From Hysterangium stoloniferum (Eukaryota; Basidiomycota; Agaricomycetes; Hysterangiales; Hysterangiaceae), in NCBI GenBank assembly GCA_015178975.1, contig WHVD01000159.1, forward strand, positions 120,942-184,941: a stretch of DNA of 64,000 bases, in the 5' to 3' direction. The position numbers and the translations under genes are program-made. Below, in pieces: positions 40,814 through 52,217 of the stretch. Numbering within the stretch: the stretch's first letter is position 1; every line of letters starts with the position of its first letter. Under the pieces are notes generated by a model. That model searched no databases. It was not told the origin of the DNA and was given only the letters and a program-made list of their open reading frames with translations.

Positions 40814-42060
40814 GATGTGGACTTTTAGCTCCTCATTCCTATGTGGGCTACCTCTGCATTCACGGTCTAACTGATGACTGGACACAATATGCCTTCATCA
40901 TGGAAAACTGGAGTGCATCTGAAATGGAAGATATGACCCACTGGGGGCGACACCAGGTCAGGTTGTTACCATGAATTGCCTTGCTCTCTCTCTTGCTGTG
41001 GGTGAGACTGCCACAATGTAGTTGTGAGTTTCTTGACCCTGTTTTGGAAATGTGACTGGATTCTAATGGTATTTTATTAGGTTCCAAGCATTATGGACAC
41101 ATCTACCAACCCTACTACTGCATCTTCTGTTCCATCAGCCTGCCCCCATCCCAGAAAGCTACAGATACCGCTTCTGAGGATTCCTCTGTCCCAGCATCAT
41201 CATTGTCCTCTTTTGCCCTCTTCAGGACAATGTCCTCTTCCGATGCCAAAACCAACGCCGCCCACCACCAAACCATCACCATCAGCAGCAAAAGGATCAG
41301 GCCTAGGAAGCATATCTGCAAGCACTTGGGTATTGACAAGGAATGCGGGTGCAATACATAGTGCATGTAACTACTTGAACTACTATCTCACTAGTCAAAA
41401 TGGTGATCGTCAACAGGTCATGTTTGCTTATTGGTGATGTCCTGTTTTTTCCTCTTACATGGTGGCAAAACAACGGTCTTAAGGGCCTGAGTTAAACAGC
41501 ATGTATGCAGGACATACATGGTACGTTTCCTCCAAATACAGTTTCTTTCGATGATTACTGACCCCTATAATATAATCATTTTAGTGGCAAAGCATTTGCA
41601 TGAGAAACAATGTCTGACAACGTAACACCTTACCAACCCACCACTACCACTACTACCGTCACTATAACAAATGTGATATGGTATGGGTGGTGAAGTCAAA
41701 GAGGAGCTCCCACCCATTTTCCTTCTGCATCATCAATGAGGTGGCAATAGATAAGAGCTGGACTTGATTCTGGGGCAGGGTGGGATCAATGGGGAAAAGA
41801 AGGGGTAGAACCAAATCACAGTATTTTTCTTGTGTATGTAGTTAAATATTGCCACATTGGATGTATTTTAAACCAATCTATGTGAATGATCACTTTGAAA
41901 AAGTCACTGTATTCGTGTATTGTCTCAGATTGATTTATTGAGTAACAAGGGCAAAGTTTGCCTCTGCCTTCTCAAGGTTTGTCAAAGGGATGTTGCCAAA
42001 GTTGAAGCACATGCATACAACTACTTCAACAAAGAAATGTGGCTGTTCTATGACAAAAAA
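40814..42060 (+). pseudogene. Coding remnants upstream of the tyrosine recombinase gene, function unknown
   Basis: Exon-like stretches: 40814-40956 (acceptor ACATAG, donor GTCAGG) reads YVGYLCIHGLTDDWTQYAF and ends MTHWGRHQ; it joins at 41081 to VPSIMDTSTNPTTASS. A frame change is needed after about 41150 to continue as a Ser-rich segment ending KECGCNT at 41360. A further stretch at 41932-42060, after an acceptor-like CTCAG, reads IDLLSNKGKVCLCLLKVC and stops at TAA, overlapping the recombinase ATG by a few bases. No family was recognised. These could be exons of one decayed gene carried by the same transposon, or a fused 5' part of the recombinase. Confidence 0.35.
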
Positions 42061-44065
42061 TAAGCCAAAGCCGGCAAGACTGTCCGTTGCTGAGTTAAAA
42101 ATGGTCAAAGACATCTCAGTGAAAGAGCATGGATTTGCCAAAACTACAAACATTAAATATAACCAACGGGTTCGTGAGGCAAGAATGTGGTTGAAGGAGC
42201 TGGTGGAAACCGAACAATCCCTGACTATTCCTCCAGGGGCTAATGAACTAGGTTGCCACCTAGGCAGTTTTGACTGGACACCAGGAGAGCTAGAAGGCGC
42301 TTTCAACAATATACCAACTCAGGCTTCACCTTGGATTCTTGGATTATTCATTGCATACAAGTGCTTCACCCAGAAGACTAAAGTGACAACAGCATGGCAG
42401 ATACATACAGCATTCAAACAGGTGTGGGAAACTGTGTATGTAAAAATAAAACTACTCGTGTCTTCTTCTACTGATGTTGTATGGTACATATATACATAAT
42501 TAGGGACCCTAACGGAAGATGGTCTGGCCCCTGGCGGTGGGATCATGAGAAAGGGACTGGTTGTGGCAATCCAGCAATTCTCGAGATGTTGAACGCATCA
42601 TTGATGCCATCAAATGGTGTGACGGAAATGAGGGAAGCCGTTCACACTCCATGGCAATGACGAAACAGGATATGGACAAAATAATTCAATGGTCAAATCA
42701 ACTCTGTCCAGATTCGATGCTAGAAGAACTGGGGAAGCTATCCCAGGGAGAATACTGGAAGCAACTTCCCTTTGTAGTGAAGCACTTTATGATGCATTTG
42801 CTACAAGTGGATTCACCCTATGGACCCGGTGTGTCTTTGTAGCTACATATTAATAGAAGTGAAATGCCCATGAATTTGAACTATTTAATTTATTTCAGAA
42901 ATTTCAAACTTGCCAAGCTACAGTATAAACATATCACCCTAGACCTCAAGACAAATGACGATTACAAATACACCTACTTCAAGGTCTCTTTATTCAATAG
43001 GAAGAACTGGGCTCACCATCAAACCAGGGATGAAATTATACACAGTTAGTTCACTCTCTCTTTGAATGACCCACTCTGATGTATATATTTTAATTTGGAA
43101 ATGAATTACAAAAAAAGGGCACGAATATCATATATACGAGCAGCCGGAGAATCCAAATATCGACATGCACTTCCACTTTCTTCGATGGTTCCAATTTTCC
43201 AACCAATTCATCTACCACTGTCTGCTGGAAGTGGACGACTATATTTTCCCTGCCATAGGCTCAAATGGAATTGCCCGGATCGAGACTCCCATTCCCCATG
43301 ATACCATTCAAAAATGGCTTGACAAGTTTTTTGAGGCATGTGAGATCAATTTAGGTCGAGGCCGGCTGACCACACACTGTTTTCGCCGAGGTGGAGCGCA
43401 GTATTGTTTTATGTATGCACACTTTGGGAAGCGATGGAGTCTGGCAATCATTCGATGGTGGGGAGGGTGGGCTGAAGGAGAACATGTATGTAGGCTTGAT
43501 TTTTTTTATGTTTTGGAATGGATATCTAACCAACCTCTAACTAAACCCCCTAACCCAACCCCTAACCCCACAATAATCACAGTGGGACACCCTGATTCGG
43601 TACCTTTTGTATGAACTATACCATTATGAAGAATCACACGGTGATGCACTCTGGCCAATCTCTCATGAAGCCGATAAGTCCTTTCTCAGTGAACACGTTG
43701 AGTCACGGCCACCTTCCAAATCTGAGCTACATGAGATGATGGTGGCACAGGCAAAAGCACTCGAAGAAAAAATCCTCACTTCTTTAACTGCTGCCCCCAT
43801 CATCTTTGCTGCTTCAGGCGACACAAATACCGGCCATGCAGCAGCAGGGGACAATCCTGGCCCACACTCTCGAACATCCCAAATGACACCAAACGAGATC
43901 AATGCAAACACAAACACAAAAAACCCTGCCATGCTCACCTTGCCAGAAAACCACAGGCTGTGTATCCCCTCAATCACACGGAAAGGCCCACTCCATTTGT
44001 GCTGGAAACAGATAATTCACGATTGGGAAAGTGCTGATCCATCCTGTGGCCATTATGTCCCACTC
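42050..44065 (+). pseudogene. Crypton-type tyrosine recombinase gene, 5' part
   Basis: Five exons are visible: 42050-42435, 42504-42828, 42899-43044, 43118-43485 and 43583-44065, with canonical introns. Exon 1 gives a helical core-binding domain. Exons 3-4 give the catalytic domain: an early Arg in FNRKNW, YEQPENP, THCFRRGG with the HxxR signature, and RWWGGWAEGEH. Exon 5 begins WDTLIRYLLYELYHY with candidate nucleophile tyrosines. A Ser/Asn-rich linker and the start of a C-terminal domain (PLHLCWKQIIHDW) follow, resembling the GCR1-type DNA-binding domain of fungal Cryptons. A one-base deletion near 42578 shifts the frame between GNP and SRDVERIID, and an 8.1-kb retrotransposon interrupts exon 5 at 44065. 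Terminal sequences of the element cannot be set; Cryptons lack long inverted repeats. Confidence 0.75.
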
Positions 44066-44905
44066 TGTTACGACCGGACAATCCCGCCGGACTCCGGGCA
44101 CTAACCCGTATGCCCCCACGCACTACAAGCACCAATTGTCTGTTTATAGGATTTCCCGCCCGGACTCCGTTATATCAAGACTTGTTACATTTAACCTCAT
44201 TACGACACATATCAGTCACCAGACTTCCCCCGGACTCCATCTCTGTCTATGTCTGTCTTCGTCCCACGCATCAGTCACCAGACCCCGCTCAGAATCCCAT
44301 CACCGCTCTAATCGAGCCCCGTTCCCGTTTTAGTCAAATGACCTGTCACGATTTAGGACTCCACTCCTGCTCCATTTCCCGTTATGGGTTATGCTTTGTC
44401 ATGATTCGGACTCTGCTCCGTTCCGTTCCGTTCCTAACACCAATTTGGTGTTTACTATTCCCGTTTTATGTTTTGTTAGTTTCGTTTTGTCATTACTGGA
44501 TTTGGTATGTCATTCACTCCATGGTCTATATAAACTGGCAGATGTTGTACATACAATCCAGTCAGAAAATTAGCTTAGATTCCCCCCAGTAATCTAATAA
44601 CATTTTCCGCTCTAAAACCTTACTTGATTCACATCGCTCGCACTAGTTGGAGCCCATGGGCTCCGGCGCATCTATCTCTCTCAACTATCTCGACTCACGA
44701 CCCACAACCTCTGACTTATGACCCACGACCCCCGACTTATGACCTACGACCCATGAACCCTGCCCGGACTCCCCGGGATTCCTGTCCGTCTGTTTGAAAT
44801 TGGACAACATGATCTAGTGAGGGTGCAGCCTATAAGCTGAAGCCAAGTCCTACCGGATATCCCGCAGGTTTCTCCGGAAACCTGGCCTGTGTGTGTATCC
44901 TAACA
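44066..44905 (+). repeat. 5' LTR of the chromovirus
   Basis: 840 bases, TGTTACGACC...TCCTAACA. It is rich in GGACTCC motifs and in a run of ACGACC/TATGACC repeats around 44695-44755. A TATATAA-like box (GGTCTATATAAAC, about 44523-44535) is a plausible promoter. Confidence 0.92.
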
Positions 44906-44941
44906 GTATTTTCTGACTAATACTCGCAGATTGTTTTTATT

Positions 44942-46234
44942 ATGCCACCAAGAAGAAGTACACGCACACAGTCATCATTACCTGGACTGTCGACTCTTCA
45001 TTCCCCATTAACTCTGTATGCCAGTCAGACGCTTGCGAACCAGTTGGAAACCATGGAAGAAGCCCGTATCGAAGAAGTCCTGGAAAATCAGGACGAATCC
45101 AAGCACAAGGACGATTCCGTGGCCCCCAACAAGGGCAAAGGTGTTGAAATTCCTCTCGAAAATCCTCCGCCTATTCAACGACCACACTTGGGGGATCCTA
45201 CTTCTGAATTTTTAGCAGGTACTATAGATAAATTCATGATGCACCTGCTTGAAGAACGAAAGAAAAAGGAACAAGAATCTCCACGGTCAAAAGTCAATGC
45301 TCCAGAACCCTTCACGGGTTCCAACCCAAACAAACTCTCTACTTTCCTCATGCAATGTCGCTTCAATTTCTGTGATTGTGCCACTGCATTCTCCACGGAC
45401 TCCCGAAAAGTCAACTATGCACTTTCATATTTGTCGGGATCCGCGTTGAAATGGTTCGAACCGGCTTTTAGTGGGATTTCCGAGGAAGAGCCGCTCTGGC
45501 TTGAAAATTGGGAGGCTTTTGTTGAGGAGCTTGAAACCAACTTCAGCCCATATGACCCGACAGGAGAAGCCGAGAATAGTCTCACAAATTTTCATATGAA
45601 GGACATGCAGCGTATCACGGACTACATCGTCCAATTCAATAATCTTGCAGCTCGTTGTCAGTGGGGTGATCCCGCTCTCCGCCACCAATTCTCCACCAGT
45701 CTGCCGTCCCACCTTAAAGACAAAGTCTCAAAAGGAGAAGATGGCAAGCCAAAAACCCTGTCCCGTATGTTCCTCAAAGCTCAAAATGTGGATGCACTTT
45801 ATTGGGAACGTCGTGCGGAAGTTGCCCGCGAGACCTCCACAGACAAAGTAAACAAGTCCACGGCCAATAAAAACAACAACAATAATTTGTCAACCAGCAA
45901 CCAGAACTCCATGCAATCCGACAAGAAGAACGATAAAAAGTCTTCAAACAACAACAACAATAAGGACAATAAGGACAATAACAAGGGTCAACAGTCTGGC
46001 AAGCAAGCTGGAAAACCCAACCTCTCAGGCAAACTCGGACCCGATGGCAAATTGACCCCACAGGAAAGACAATGTCGTATGGACAACAACCTCTGTCTCT
46101 TGTGCGGGAAACCCGGTCATCGAGTCCCGGAATGTCCGCTGGCAAAAGCAAACTCTTCAAAGGGTCAAACAGCCAAGGCCTCCACGGAAACCCCGTCGAA
46201 GGACAAACCAGCTTCCGACTCGAAAAAAGAGTAA
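44942..46234 (+). CDS. Gag protein of the chromovirus
   Basis: An ATG 36 bases after the LTR opens a 430-residue frame with no interruption. The N-terminal third is charged. A retrotransposon-gag core follows (about residues 115-290, with FLMQCRFNFCDCA and LSGSALKWFE), then an Asn/Lys-rich linker (about 310-365). One zinc knuckle CLLCGKPGHRVPEC (C-x2-C-x4-H-x4-C) sits at about 385-398, and the C-terminal tail is basic. Its role is formation of the particle that packages the element RNA. It ends at TAA 46232-46234, just after an A6 run that could shift ribosomes into pol. Frame integrity contrasts with the broken pol. Confidence 0.92.
   Translation: MPPRRSTRTQSSLPGLSTLHSPLTLYASQTLANQLETMEEARIEEVLENQDESKHKDDSVAPNKGKGVEIPLENPPPIQRPHLGDPTSEFLAGTIDKFMMHLLEERKKKEQESPRSKVNAPEPFTGSNPNKLSTFLMQCRFNFCDCATAFSTDSRKVNYALSYLSGSALKWFEPAFSGISEEEPLWLENWEAFVEELETNFSPYDPTGEAENSLTNFHMKDMQRITDYIVQFNNLAARCQWGDPALRHQFSTSLPSHLKDKVSKGEDGKPKTLSRMFLKAQNVDALYWERRAEVARETSTDKVNKSTANKNNNNNLSTSNQNSMQSDKKNDKKSSNNNNNKDNKDNNKGQQSGKQAGKPNLSGKLGPDGKLTPQERQCRMDNNLCLLCGKPGHRVPECPLAKANSSKGQTAKASTETPSKDKPASDSKKE
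46221..46234 (+). promoter_or_regulatory. Candidate -1 ribosomal frameshift site between gag and pol
   Basis: Six A residues (46223-46228) lie in the gag frame as AAA AAA, followed by GAG and the gag stop TAA. Pol is in the -1 frame, is open upstream of this point, and continues after it as KRVSNPADSM into the protease. The site is homopolymeric rather than a textbook heptamer; no downstream pseudoknot was assessed. Confidence 0.5.
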
Positions 46235-49200
46235 GCAACCCTGCGGACTCCATGCGGGTTGGGGGTTGCGTTGCCTCTCCACGCATTCAAGAGTTTACTC
46301 GCCTCAACGCATCTGCTCTTTCACATTCTGATTCATTTTTTGTTAAACTTATGTCTAATATGATTCCGAAATTCATTTTTTCAGCTCTCATAAATTCTGG
46401 CTCGACTCATTGTTTTTTAGATACAAAATTCACGCAAAAAAATTCTTTGTCAACTTATTCGATAAATCCCGTCACTCTCCACCTCTTCGATGGCACAAGT
46501 AATTCAGTTGTTACCCAAGCTTGTGATTTACCCATCAGTTTCCCTTGTGGAACATCTCAATCGGTCATGTTCTATGTGACCCAGTTAGACTCAAGTTGCT
46601 CGGTGGTCCTAGGACTCAACTGGCTTACCCACTACAATCCGTTGATTGACTGGATAGCTAACAGTATAACATTCCAGACTCCCGTGGCAGCCGAGGAAAC
46701 TGCACCTGTCTCGGCCTCCCCGGCACCCATGACCTTCCCGGCACCTGCAGTCTCGAGGACTCCTGTGATCCCTACGGCACCAATGGCTTCCCCAGAACCC
46801 ACGGCACCTCCGTCCATTTCTCTGATTAATGCTGCAGCTTTTATTAGGGCTTCAAAAATGGATGGGTCCCAGGCGTTCACTATCAACTTAAAAATTGATG
46901 AAGCAACTGGACGTTTTTCAACCCTGGTATCTGAATCTGAGCAAGCTGCTGACCTAGAAGGCATCCCAGAGAAATATCATGACTTTGCAGATGTTTTTAG
47001 CAAGTGGAAAGCTGACCGGCTTCCACCTCACAGAGAATATGACTTAAAAATCGATCTTGAAGATGGCACCTAGCCACCCCTAGGACATATTTACCCACTC
47101 TCGTCCACGGAACTTTCCGCAATCCACGATTTCCTGGATGAACATTTGTCCATAGGTTTTATCTGACCCTCAAAGTCTCCTTTTGGAGCACCTGTTCTGT
47201 TTGTCAGAAAAAAGGGTGGATCCCTTCGACTATGTGTTGATTTTAGAGGACTCAATGCTGTCACCAAGAAGGATAAATATCCACTCCCACTTATATCTGA
47301 TCTGCTCGATGCTCCGTGGAATGCCCGGATTTACACCAAAATAGATCTCAAACATGCCTATCATTTGGTCTGGATTGCCACGGGCGACAAATGGAAAACC
47401 ACTTTTAGAACCCATTATGGGGCCTTCGAGTGGTTGGTGATCCCCTTTGGACTCACCAATGCTCCGTCTGTTTTTCAGCATTTTATCAACGACATTTTCT
47501 CCGACATGCTCGATGTATGCATCATTGTTTACTTGGACAACATTCTTATCTACTCCGAGAATCCCACGGAACACGACAAACAAGTCCGTGAAGTTCTCCG
47601 GAGGCTCAGACAACATGGTTTATTTGCAAATGGTAAAAAATGTACTTTTGACACGGACTCCATGGAATACCTAGGTTTCATGATGGGACCCGATGGACTC
47701 CGAATGGACAAAACTAAAGTGCAAGTCATCAAAGATTGGCCTGAACCCTGAAAAGTTAAAGATATACAATCCTTCCTCAGCTTTGCCAATTTTTACAGAC
47801 GTTTTATCCATGGATATTCCGACATTACAGTACCCCTTACCCATCTTATGTGTAAGGGTACTCCATGAAACTTTAACGATAAGTGTCAAAAAGCTTTCAA
47901 TATTTTAAAAAATTCTTTTTCTACAGCTCCTATTCTGTCACATTGGAAACCGGACTTCCTGCTCATTGTTGAAACGGACACCTCCAACTATGCACTTGGA
48001 GCCATTTTGACTATCCAGGACTCTGACGGAGAAGTCCACCCCATAGCTTTTCTGTCCCGGACTTTTACCGGAGCAGAGCTCAACTACGATGTTCATGATA
48101 AAGAACTTCTGGCAATCTTTTCAGCTTTCAAAGTGTGGCAACACTATTTGGAAGGCTCAGGAGCTCCTATTGATGTTGTAACAGATCACAAAAACCTGGA
48201 ATACTTTTCTACCACAAAACTTTTGACCTGCCGGCAGGCCCACTGGTCTGAATATCTATCTGCCTTCAACATGATTATCCACTTTCGACCCAGCCGTCTC
48301 GGTGGCAAACCCGATGCTTTAACTAGACGATGGAACATCTATCCTAAAGAGGGGAACAACGACTATGCAACGGTAAATCCGCAAAACCTGAAACCTATTT
48401 TCACGAATCAACAACTTACCGCATTGGTCTGCGCAACTTTCCTCATCAATCCCATTGTCCGTGGAATTATCATTATGGATATTGAGAAGTTACATCAAGA
48501 TATTCTATCGGCAATTATGCTAGACCCAATTACTAAAGCTCACCAGGACAATCCCGTGGACCCCGGTCAACCCCGGTGGTCTCTTGACCAGCATGGTTTC
48601 ATTAGACTTGACGATCGTATCTATGTACCGGACTCCGACGGCCTCCGCCTCAGGATCCTTCAATACAAACATGATCATCCACTCTCAGGACATTTCGGGT
48701 ACAACAAAACTCTATCATTAATAAGAAGAGAATATAATTGGCCCAGACTCCGTGGATTCATTAAGCACTATTGTAAATCTTGCACTACTTGTCCCCACTT
48801 GAAATCTCAGTGACACAAGCCATACGGCCTTTTGAAACAACTCCCGGTACCGGAACACCCGTGGAATTCTATCTCTATGGATTTCATTGAACACCTACCG
48901 GATTCCGAAGCCTTTTCTGCTATTCTAGTCGTTGTTGACAGATTCTCAAAACAAGGTATATTCATCCCTACTTATGACACAATTACGTCCGTGCAGTTAG
49001 CAGAACTTTTCATTATCCACGTATTTTCCAAGCACAGAGTTCCGTCCCACGTGACTTCCAATCGAGGATCAGAGTTCGTGTCTCACTTCTTTAGATCCCT
49101 TGGAAAATCCTTGGACATGACATTACATTTCACGTCCGGACATCACCCAGAAGGTGACGGACAAACCGAACGCATCAACCAGACATTGGAACAATACCTC

Positions 49201-49959
49201 CGCGTATATTGCAACTACCAACAGGACAATTGGAAATCCTTGTTACCACTTGCAGAGTTTGCTTACAACAATGCACCCTCGGCCACTACTGGCATTTCCC
49301 CGTTCTTTGCAAATAAAGGATATAATCCAAATATTACAGTACATCCAGAATGAAATCTTGCCTCTGTTGGTGCTCAAGAGTTCACCATGGACCTCCACGA
49401 GCTCCACGAGGAACTCCGGACTGCAATATTGTCTGCCCAAGAGCAATACCAACATTCAGTGGACAAACACCTGATCCCACCACCAAACTTCAAGATTGGC
49501 GACCGTGTTTATGTCAAAGCTCAATTCTTCTGGACTACCCGTCCATCAAAGAAGCTTGCTGAAAAATATTTAGGTCCGTTTGAAATTATTGCACAAGTAG
49601 GTTCAGTCTCTTGGACTCTACGGCTTCCAGATAGCATGCGCACGGTACACCTGGTATTTCATGTTTCTATGCTAGAACCTTGTACTGCTAACACTATTCC
49701 GGATCGTGTGCAATCTCTGCCTCCTCCTGTCATTATTGACGGAGAACCCGAGTTTGAAATCTCACAGATTTTAGATTCAAAAATTGATAAGCGTCGATGC
49801 ACTTGTAAACTGCTTTACTTGGTCAAGTGGGCGGGTTACGAGGGCACCAATGAAGAGATCTCATGGATTTTGGCCACGGAACTTGGTAATGCCATGGAAA
49901 TCGTTACTGACTTTCATACAGCTTACCCACTCAAACCTGGACCATTATCGTCCCTATGA
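46229..49959 (+). pseudogene. Pol polyprotein of the chromovirus, with six in-frame stops
   Basis: One frame runs from the gag overlap to 49959. Domains: protease with LINSGSTH, where families usually have D-S/T-G; a Pro/Ala-rich spacer; RT with KIDLKHAYH and YLDN in place of YLDD (about 47530-47545); RNase H with DHKNLEY; integrase with CKSCTTC, MDFIE, SNRGSEF in place of SDRGSEF, and GDGQTER; and a C-terminal chromodomain with LLYLVKWAGYEG (about 49812-49850). Stops lie at 47071, about 47164, 47749, 47866, 48811 and 49351. Four are TGA where arginine is expected, consistent with CGA to TGA. The two upstream stops fall before the RT core. No active enzymes are expected from this copy. Confidence 0.9.
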
Positions 49960-50156
49960 CCACACTCCACAGGCCCCGTGTTACGTTTGGACTCATTTTC
50001 ATTATTCCCTGTCACCCTATGTCTCTCTTTGCTTTTACAGGTTCTGACATGTCTTGTCAAGTCTTTAAGCGGACTCTCTGTGGACTTTGGCTTTGACTTT
50101 TATTTTTATGTTTTTCACACTTTACTTTTATGTTCAATTATTATTAAGTTTTATTT

Positions 50157-51169
50157 CTATTCTTCATCTACATTGATGGGGCTATCCTTTTTCCCCGCCT
50201 CTTTTTCCACCTCAGCTTTTCCCGCCTCATTCATCTCCTTGGGTAGCTCCGCGATGTCCACAGGCACCTCCTCCTCATCTGAACTGGCTTCCTTGGAACT
50301 CCCAGCCTCCAGCTTCTCATAAACAAAGCTGGCATACTCCATCAGGAACCTAAAATGGTCCCCACGGAGTGCACGGAGATCGTTCACCATCACAACACTG
50401 ACCTTGTTGCTCTTCTGGAGCAACTCATTCTGGGCTTCTATGCCCTCGGCGATCCGTCCCAAAACTTCCTCCAGACTGGAGTATCCATCCGACCCACCAT
50501 TCTCCTGTGAACCGGACCCCGCAGCCTGCTTGTGAACGAGCGAGCACCTCGCCTTGAGGTGCGTGCACTGGTAACAGCCCGGGCCCCGGCCGGACTTCCA
50601 ATTACACTCAGTGTTCTGGTCATTACAACCGGAACACTGTGGGTCATTCCGAGTCGGTAGGCGGACTGGCGCCGCCTTCCTTGCTTTCTGTTGATACGGT
50701 TAGCTCCACGGTATACCCACAGACCCGAGACTCACTTTGTTGGGGCTTTCTGGCTCCCCCTCGGACTCGGACTCGACTTCCACTGCCTTGCGCTGAAAAC
50801 GCCAAGTCAAAAAAAAGCAAGAAGTTGAACTATGGGACTTACCTTTCCTGCAACAACCGTGGCTCTATCCACGGCCACCCGGGCTTTCTCTGCTGCCACC
50901 CTGGCCTTCTCCGCAGCCACCCATGCAGCCTCCTCCTCCTCCCTCTGCTTCTGCCTCGCAGCCTCTTCCTCCGCAGCCACAGCCACCTGGTATTCCCTAT
51001 TCAGGGCCTCCTCGACCTCCCGGGCTTCTCGCTCTGCCTCTTCTCGCTGTTGATGTTGCTCGTCCCACTGTGCCAAGATTTGGGCAGCAGACAGCAGCAC
51101 CCGGTACTGACTGCCCGTGGAGGGCCCGGCGGTTGGCATAGGCTTGCGCGGCATGGGCTTTGGTCCCAT
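50157..51169 (-). CDS. Antisense gene of the chromovirus: coiled coil plus Zn2Cys6-like cluster
   Basis: On the strand opposite gag-pol, exons 50843-51169, 50736-50792 and 50157-50687 join in phase with GTAAGT/CAG and GTGAGT/CAG introns, giving 304 residues. Residues 1-25 are basic and Pro-rich (MGPKPMPRKP). Residues about 35-108 form a strongly charged Ala/Glu/Arg coiled coil. Exon 2 is acidic. Exon 3 carries CSGCNDQNTEC, then nine residues, then CYQCTHLKARC: the spacing C-x2-C-x6-C-x9-C-x2-C-x6-C fits the fungal binuclear zinc cluster. A Glu/Lys-rich tail ends PINVDEE. There is no stop or frameshift, unlike pol. The same design is visible in the old element at 6300-4554. It may bind DNA or RNA and act in regulation or targeting of the element; this is inference. 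Transcription would start near the 3' LTR. Confidence 0.8.
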
Positions 51170-51367
51170 TTTTTTCAATGATGGGGGTAATAAAGAAGAA
51201 GAAATTTCTATTTTTTCAAATTTATATATAGGCTCGTCGCGTTTGAACCTTACCTTCCAGATCACATGACTCTTTGACACATACGTGTAACCGACATGAC
51301 TTTTGACACATGCGCGTAGCCAACAAGAACCTTATCTAGGTCTAGAGCCTTTTTGAGACTTCGGCAT

Positions 51368-51380
51368 AAAGGGAGGGTAC
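51368..51380 (+). other. Polypurine tract before the 3' LTR
   Basis: AAAGGGAGGGTAC immediately precedes TGTTATGACC. It matches the junction of the old copy at 6508-6520, and is the expected plus-strand priming site for reverse transcription. Confidence 0.75.
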
Positions 51381-52212
51381 TGTTATGACCGGACAATCCC
51401 GCCGGACTCCAGGCACTAACCCGTACGCCCCCATGCACTACAAGCCCCAATTGTCTGTTTATAGGATTTCCCGCCCGGACTCTGTTATGTCAAGACTTGT
51501 TACATTCGACCTCATTACGACACATATCAGTCACCGGACTTCCCCCAGACTCTGTCTCTGTCTATGTCCGTCTTCGTCCCACGTATCAGTCACTGGACCC
51601 TGCTCAGAATCCTGTCACCGCTCTAATCGAGCCCCGTTCCCGTTTTAGTCAAATGACCTGTCACGATTTAGGACTCCGCTCCTGCTCCGTTTCCCATTAT
51701 GGGTTATGCTTTGTCACGATTCAGACTCCGCTCCGTTCCATTCCATTCCTAACACCAATTTGGTGTTTACTATTCCTGTTTTATGTTTTGTTAGTTTCAT
51801 TTTGTCATTACTGGATTTGGTATGTCATTCACTCCATGGTCTATATAAACTGGCAGATGTTGTACATACAATCCAGTCAGAAAATTAGCTTAGATTCCCC
51901 CCAGTAATCTAATAACATTTTCCGCTCTAAAACCTTACTTGATTCACATCGCTTGCACTAGTCGGAGCCCACGGGCTCCGGTGCATCTATCTCTCTCAAC
52001 TATCTCAACTCATGACCCACGACCTCTGACGTACGACCCATGACCTCCAACTTATGACCTACGACACACGAACCCCGCCCCGGGATTCCCATCCATCTGT
52101 TTGAAATTGGACAACACGATCTAGTGAGGGTGCAGCCTATAAGCTGAAGCCAAGTCCTACCAGATATCCCACAGGTTTCTCCAGAAACCCGGCCTGTGTG
52201 TGTGTCCTAACA
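51381..52212 (+). repeat. 3' LTR of the chromovirus
   Basis: 832 bases, TGTTATGACC...TCCTAACA. It differs from the 5' LTR by scattered substitutions and by loss of 8 bases in the GACTCCCCGGG region. Several differences are CG in one LTR and TG or CA in the other, in both directions, for example ACGACC against ATGACC at the start. Confidence 0.92.
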
Positions 52213-52217
52213 CACTC

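Follow-up and report, generated by a model that had tools for sequence, protein, structure and literature searches.

The 64,000-nucleotide stretch of the Hysterangium stoloniferum genome analysed here (contig WHVD01000159.1, positions 120,942 to 184,941; hereafter the window) contains a Ty3/gypsy element that carries a spliced gene on the strand opposite gag and pol. As variation among its copies shows, purifying selection maintains the frame, the splice signals and the cysteine cluster of this antisense gene, which also moves along with copies of the element that inserted recently. An earlier note on this DNA had proposed such a spliced and selected gene of the element family, and this is now strongly supported by a test across 40 copies, a frame test, young copies and the ratio of nonsynonymous to synonymous divergence (dN/dS).

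Structure and expression signals of the antisense gene

The gene lies at 51169-50157 on the minus strand and comprises three exons and two introns that encode 304 amino acids. Its coordinates were re-derived, and the three-exon frame with canonical introns is exactly as first described in the earlier note:

50843..51169, minus strand: exon 1 (327 nt), with the ATG at 51169, the N-terminus and a long charged segment
50846-51091, minus strand: charged, presumably helical segment, residues 27-108 (helix by eye)
50793..50842, minus strand: intron 1 (50 nt), GTAAGT...CAG
50736..50792, minus strand: exon 2 (57 nt), acidic segment
exon 2/3 junction, minus strand: candidate nuclear signal KKARK across the junction, beside the cysteine cluster (by eye)
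50688..50735, minus strand: intron 2 (48 nt), GTGAGT...CTAAC...CAG
50157..50687, minus strand: exon 3, with the cysteine cluster, a presumed helix (50322-50480), an acidic tail and the stop codon TAG
50544..50636, minus strand: six-cysteine cluster, residues 146-176
51222..51230, minus strand: candidate TATA box TATATATAA for antisense transcription, roughly 60 bases upstream of the ATG

The 3' end of the gene sits 197 bases past the pol stop on the opposite strand, which places the gene between pol and the 3' long terminal repeat (LTR), the aORF-3R location. The TATA box is found 58-62 bases 5' of the antisense ATG in all 21 copies with upstream sequence, 19 of 22 listed copies have AATAAA no more than about 60 bases after the stop, and the stretch separating the gene from the LTR is 91-96% identical to that of the window in 20 longer copies. 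The antisense gene may have an internal promoter of its own. Owing to the antisense placement, splicing cannot strip the introns from the genomic RNA, and they would therefore survive retrotransposition, which shows a way for a retroelement to retain an intron-bearing gene.

Conservation and selection across copies

The genome (111 Mb in 554 contigs) was searched for copies of the antisense gene at the DNA level, which returned 736 candidates; 40 were scored and all 40 aligned. By design of this search the gene is found in every scored copy, and gene-less copies were not systematically sought. The ATG, the intron 1 donor GT and both acceptors are kept in 40 of 40 copies, and the intron 2 donor GT in 39. 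The frame is open over its full length, up to the usual stop, in six copies (the window copy, L010, L011, L018, L037 and L046); L047 is free of internal stops but lacks the one at the usual position, and 33 carry a stop or frameshift. Among 52 stop codons in aligned codons, 37 are TGA and 31 fall on five codons (39, 40, 42, 47, 83) at which other copies read CGA, a clustering as CpG decay would give. The earlier note had also argued for selection from the six stops in pol against the open antisense frame. This argument is weak, since the 33 copies are broken in the antisense gene too, and the case for the gene rests on variants common to copies and on the young copies rather than on the openness of the window copy.

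Shared variation carries a clear signature of the antisense frame. Distinct indel events in multiples of three make up 16 of 31 in exons and 1 of 12 in introns (one-sided P 0.009). For non-CpG variants present in at least three copies, the ratio of nonsynonymous to synonymous changes is 0.35 of that expected, with none of 2000 simulations as low; it is 0.42 for variants in two copies and 0.85 for private ones, and 1.05-1.96 for shared variants when the frame is shifted by one or two. Shared CpG variants appear neutral (ratio 0.88). Against selection on the frame speaks that shared stop variants are not depleted (11 versus 5.9 expected), probably as a result of recurrent CGA-to-TGA decay. Coding on the sense strand was considered and rejected: one of its three registers has a synonymous excess (66 versus 43.7, ratio 0.45), a weaker signal than that of the antisense frame and one explained by the third positions of both frames falling on the same bases, and the other two registers have ratios above 1 for shared non-CpG variants.

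Pairwise comparison of intact genes gave dN/dS values of 0.24, 0.31, 0.34 and 0.44 for four pairs within the window group, of 0.19-0.21 in three comparisons with the young type described below (synonymous divergence, dS, 0.83-0.96), and of 0.12 for the pair L074-L077 of a second branch, whose dS of 1.9 is close to saturation; more distant pairs are saturated. Across copies, the comparison that the earlier note had singled out, dN/dS between subfamilies is thus 0.12-0.21.

Young copies and a second branch

A search with exon 3 gave 1252 candidates, of which 150 were scored, with identities of 65-100%, and 19 loci were fetched. All 19 keep the ATG as well as the donor and acceptor of intron 2, while the intron 1 donor GT is present in 17 and its acceptor AG in 18. 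Five young loci (L048-L052) encode one identical intact protein of 294 amino acids, and a search with this young type (2485 candidates, 40 scored) gave 24 matches at 99-100% identity, one of them partial. In L067 the LTRs are identical at 822 of 822 positions, gag is open (431 amino acids) and so is a pol frame of 1304 codons; in L068, the other young copy examined, the LTRs are 97.7% identical and pol is broken. The intact antisense gene in young copies indicates that it moves together with recently inserted elements.

Furthermore, an integrase search (2851 candidates, 150 scored) yielded eight stretches of 3 kb that lie downstream of integrases. One of them, L074, has a pol tail that is 79% identical over 34 positions and carries an antisense gene, which was missed by tblastn with the window protein even at an E value of 10 and was recovered by combining the cysteine pattern with a splice search. 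It encodes 298 amino acids with 29% identity to the window protein and has a charged exon 1, an intron before RKA, an acidic exon 2, an intron after SPK and the cluster in exon 3. Judged by the common intron positions and the cysteine array, this is the same gene as that of the window. The L074 type has 151 matches, with 150 of 606 candidates scored; L077, from this list, has the full gene (292 amino acids), and for L078 the splice search gave no full frame. In all 18 aligned exon-3 sequences, which were chosen for an open exon 3 and represent both branches, the six cysteines are invariant, and the array noted in the window copy is therefore conserved in other copies.

Protein searches for relatives, as suggested in the earlier note, were restricted to candidates selected by word sharing and length (one search scored 8000 of them) and revealed only three relatives, P0001, P0002 and P0003, all annotated in H. 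stoloniferum, and none outside Hysterangium was found. These three public gene models look like mis-modelled pieces of the antisense gene. No relative was found among viral contigs, and a search of solved structures gave four weak matches, none of them convincing. Capture of a host gene was considered and set aside, as no progenitor was seen in the protein searches; progenitors within the own genome were not separately sought.

Probable exchange of the antisense cassette

Comparison of L067 with the window element in 300-base segments revealed 90-96% identity in LTR, gag and pol (one LTR segment 88%) and 73-82% in the antisense gene. Accordingly, dS is 0.146 for gag, 0.139 for pol and 0.87 for the antisense gene. 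At a resolution of 40 bases, the diverged block (58-88% identity) has its edges within about 40 bases of the antisense stop and start codons, and the stretches flanking it are 88-100% identical. The antisense introns are the most diverged part, with 65-67% identity and splice signals kept, which argues that the divergence of the cassette is not due to selection on amino acids. Transversions against 21 old copies show the same step at the cassette, and values per 100 sites upstream and within the cassette are 0.6 and 10.0 for window-L065, 0.3 and 10.4 for L026-L065, and 1.1 and 10.4 for L065-L063; in many other pairs the ratio between the two regions is only 1-2. Moreover, L018 combines pol, antisense gene and promoter of the window type (the promoter at 94%) with LTRs of another type (77-78%), so that a value pooled over its LTR and promoter is misleading, and this mosaic indicates that exchange is not confined to the cassette. 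These patterns are most simply read as the outcome of recombination among lineages of the element in which the antisense coding unit was one of the modules exchanged. Such an exchange between near-identical elements would alter the protein type of a given backbone.

The protein and its cysteine cluster

The protein has six cysteines (146, 149, 156, 166, 169 and 176), which together form the array C-x2-C-x6-C-x9-C-x2-C-x6-C described in the earlier note. Zn2Cys6 domains (PF00172) have the spacing C-x2-C-x6-C-x5-12-C-x2-C-x6-8-C, with which the antisense protein agrees. Several results weigh against a straightforward assignment to this family. The Pfam profile Zn_clus gave 8.1 bits for the whole protein and 16 bits for a fragment, below the cut-off of 21, and the match covers profile positions 16-32 only, pairing the cluster's first half with the profile's second half. 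When searched by itself, the second half of the cluster has no Zn_clus match, and neither has the L074 protein. By eye, this second half (CYQCTHLKARC, CQECASQKLGC) resembles the basic first half of Gal4. The sequence is consistent with a zinc cluster with apparently swapped halves, which may work like the fungal Zn2Cys6 family, without membership being implied. Hence, of the Zn2Cys6-type protein proposed in the earlier note, the spacing stands, whereas the profile score stays below the cut-off, the halves look swapped and the second half is unmatched. We infer that the product is a nuclear protein that combines a zinc-cluster DNA-binding unit with helical dimerisation segments.

CGG-type sites in the element

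A scan of all 6- to 8-mers revealed an enrichment of CGG-type words, which was only afterwards tested with controls: host sequence (the remainder of the window only), other elements, Markov simulations and synonymous shuffles. Counts for L067 refer to the 5' LTR and the internal part (7282 bases). Its top word, CCACGG, has a z score of 10.8, compared to a largest simulated value of 5.8 and to 3.7-6.1 for the top words in seven host segments. CCRYGG occurs 41 times versus 9.0 expected (largest count in 200 simulations, 21) and TCCRYGGA 12 times versus 1.3. The corresponding counts in the remaining 55.9 kb of the window are 30 (expected 40) and 1 (expected 3.5), and the motif is thus dense in the element and rare in this host sequence, as are VANC-type motifs. 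Control words in L067 gave 5 versus 4.9 (CCYRGG), 10 versus 4.3 (GGYRCC) and 13 versus 9.4 (GGRYCC). In synonymous shuffles, the observed CCRYGG counts of gag (6 versus 0.75) and pol (20 versus 4.3) were exceeded in none of 1000 each, and in the antisense coding sequence 8 sites compare to 3.2 (P 0.003); when codon-boundary dinucleotides were kept as well, expectations rose to 1.2 for gag and 7.6 for pol (0 of 300 each). The seven other 3-kb stretches downstream of integrases, five of them copia-like and L075 Ty3-like by eye, contain 0-4 CCRYGG sites (expected 0.9-2.7), with L073 not a clean control as its end includes a portion of one copy of the element family studied here; the copia-like pol frames lack enrichment. 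The decayed copy in the window has 28 sites (expected 7.1) and 20 related copies have 15-38, but these copies share sites by descent.

Within L067, 26 of the 41 sites lie in gag or pol, scattered singly and without tandem arrays, and the LTR holds three. TCCGCGGA and TCCGTGGA are among these sites; according to excerpts of one source they are the PDRE sites (PDRE1/PDRE2) bound by the yeast zinc-cluster factors Pdr1/Pdr3 (PMC11111045). One LTR site stands out by its position:

44519..44534, plus strand: CCRYGG-type site, CCATGG, two bases 5' of the LTR TATA box TATATAAA

It reads CCACGG in the young L067, and of the 28 old contexts that retain the TATA word, 27 conform to CCRYGG.

Other observations speak against CCRYGG as a recognised site. 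The coding sites prefer one codon phase (gag 5 of 6, pol 14 of 20), and the sites are conserved between young and old copies to no greater extent (0.66) than control words, for which reason their conservation was dropped as evidence. Inverted arrangements are enriched as much or more (CGG-N5-CCG 25 versus 4.3, CGG-N3-CCG 22 versus 4.5), so that the recognised unit may be larger or different. Finally, the second branch (L074, L077, L078) lacks CCRYGG enrichment in 1-3 kb (L074, 1 versus 1.9). In an exploratory analysis of 2 kb of L074, the word CCGACG, likewise a CGG word, occurs 11 times versus 1.8-2.0 expected (z 6.4, simulated maximum 4.9). As a separate observation, CGGACTCC is found 10 times on the plus and once on the minus strand of L067, 8 times and 0 times in the window element, and 2 times and once in the rest of the window; this strand bias could be an RNA-level signal.

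Proposed function and alternatives

The earlier note had suggested that the family carries its own regulator or a targeting protein; the enriched CGG-type sites give indirect backing to the former, and the latter found no support in this analysis. We regard the chances as about evenly balanced that the gene encodes a nuclear, self-recognising zinc-cluster regulator, provided in antisense by the element itself. Such a dimeric protein would bind the everted CGG repeats (CCRYGG, with TCCRYGGA as the best form) that are scattered across the element encoding it, with one bound site abutting the LTR TATA box, and binding would mark and regulate the element's own copies. Counter-silencing or activation appears more likely than repression, because the sites extend across gag and pol instead of being limited to the promoter. 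The transition-rich decay of the LTRs (51 of 54 differences in the window pair) and of CGA codons is suggestive of methylation of these elements by the host and renders an anti-silencing role plausible, and no more. The LTR transitions and CGA stops in the window and older copies can also be seen as a sign of cytosine methylation or a process like repeat-induced point mutation (RIP). A more specific version, in which an exchangeable antisense zinc-cluster protein serves self-recognition or anti-silencing through everted CGG sites at synonymous positions of gag and pol and beside the LTR TATA box, with branch-specific proteins and words (CCRYGG versus CCGACG) and co-evolution of cassette and sites, is put forward tentatively, as possible rather than probable.

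Alternatively, the protein could be a self-repressor that controls copy number, lowering gag-pol transcription from the TATA-side LTR site in the manner of HBZ of human T-cell leukaemia virus type 1 (HTLV-1). The retention of CCRYGG two bases 5' of the TATA box in those 27 of 28 old contexts would fit, as would the observed cassette exchange, which would let an element escape a resident repressor, and HBZ and APH-2 provide a precedent (excerpts of PMC3185765). However, with just 3 of 41 sites in the LTR and the majority in gag, pol and the antisense region, and since selection for self-limitation should be weaker than for self-promotion, we consider a repressor unlikely. We judge it similarly improbable that the protein has an accessory role later in the life cycle of the element, in nuclear entry, particle assembly or the targeting of integration, with the enriched words arising from another cause such as a codon-context habit or an RNA-level signal of this family. 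The codon-phase preference, the strand bias of CGGACTCC (10 plus versus 1 minus) and site conservation no better than that of controls are in line with it, but the enrichment survives both types of shuffles and extends to the antisense coding sequence (8 versus 3.2), and neither the host part of the window nor copia-like pol frames show it.

Regulation by the antisense RNA alone, through double-stranded RNA with the genomic RNA and with an incidental frame, has been considered for plant elements (excerpts of PMC7264820), and the convergent genes would indeed overlap as RNA. Nevertheless, frame-specific selection and conserved splicing require a protein, to which an RNA effect may add, and we regard this explanation as very improbable. 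That the open frame is due to chance and has no function might be concluded from the 33 of 40 scored copies with a stop or frameshift; the conservation across the 40 copies, the intact young copies and the invariant cysteines contradict this, and the frame test and the second branch refute it, so that its probability is negligible.

The host element and its surroundings

The element spans 44066-52212 of the window, with LTRs of 840 and 832 bases that are 93.5% identical. Its features outside the antisense gene are:

44066..44905, plus strand: 5' LTR, target duplication CACTC at 44061-44065
44942..46234, plus strand: gag, open, 430 amino acids, with a zinc-knuckle motif
46072..49959, plus strand: pol frame, interrupted by six stops, with recognisable protease and chromodomain
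49753..49917, plus strand: chromodomain at the end of pol (PF00385, E 9.7e-6)
51368..51380, plus strand: polypurine tract (partly by eye)
51381..52212, plus strand: 3' LTR, target duplication CACTC at 52213-52217

The chromodomain scores 25.9 bits, just above the Pfam cut-off of 25.1, and the element is a Ty3/gypsy chromovirus of this ectomycorrhizal Agaricomycete. The gag and pol frames differ and overlap at 46072-46234, and pol is probably expressed by a -1 shift or an equivalent mechanism. The element is inserted within coding-like sequence (41990-44065 and from 52213 onward) that looks tyrosine recombinase-like by eye, with an R..H..R-like stretch near 43360-43440; a Pfam search with two of its frames gave no match. 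A short run of CCCTAA-like, telomere-type words lies at 43545-43570 inside the interrupted stretch.

Comparison with known systems

According to excerpts of a 2020 review (PMC7264820), plant elements as well as the fungal Boty elements have additional antisense genes located between pol and the 3' LTR, and the plant gypsy precedent named in the earlier note therefore holds and extends to a fungus. Boty-like elements of Botrytis cinerea carry the antisense gene brtn (excerpts of PMC7264820, PMC8365987 and PMC4227169). By description, Boty is, like the present element, a fungal gypsy element with a chromodomain and an additional antisense gene. The study of Boty brtn is reportedly that of Zhao et al. 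2011.

The plant antisense open reading frames (ORFs) Grande gene23, RIRE2, Retand ORF4/TRP28 and PvRetro13 belong to the same class of antisense additional ORFs, from which the present gene differs by its two introns, six-cysteine cluster, candidate sites and cassette exchange. In the parts of the sources consulted, the Grande gene is described as transcribed from its own promoter and nuclear (PMC7264820) and TRP28 of Retand is predicted to bind DNA (PMC11963269); TRP28 is not among the Pfam matches of our protein. HBZ of HTLV-1 and APH-2 of HTLV-2 are likewise regulator-type proteins from a spliced antisense gene near the 3' end (excerpts of PMC3185765). HBZ transcripts, however, begin in the 3' LTR and encode a bZIP domain, whereas the present gene has an internal candidate TATA box and a cysteine cluster.

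VANC of the Arabidopsis VANDAL elements acts in anti-silencing, and its short motif reaches a high density in the element that encodes it while being rare elsewhere (excerpts of PMC5735166). Our element shares with it an element-encoded factor and a dense short motif, with the binding of the present protein as a candidate feature. In contrast, VANDAL is a DNA transposon with motifs in non-coding tandem repeats, while the present words run non-tandem through gag and pol. Zn2Cys6 proteins of the Pdr1/Pdr3 type (PF00172) resemble the antisense protein in the six-cysteine spacing and in the linker and presumed helix that come after the cluster, and the element is rich in Pdr1/Pdr3-type sites; the differences are the sub-threshold Pfam score and the apparently swapped halves, with the basic half second by eye.

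In the literature we found no description of a two-intron structure with conserved splicing, of a zinc-cluster type, of dispersed sites or of cassette exchange, although the main Boty report was outside the comparison and could change this. As of the 2020 review, in the excerpts at hand, the function of LTR-element antisense genes was still unknown (PMC7264820). While this kind of antisense gene is already known, the packing of a young copy with CCRYGG and the exchange of the antisense cassette are new here, and the combination of a recognisable DNA-binding type, candidate sites, intact young copies and natural cassette exchange makes the function directly testable.
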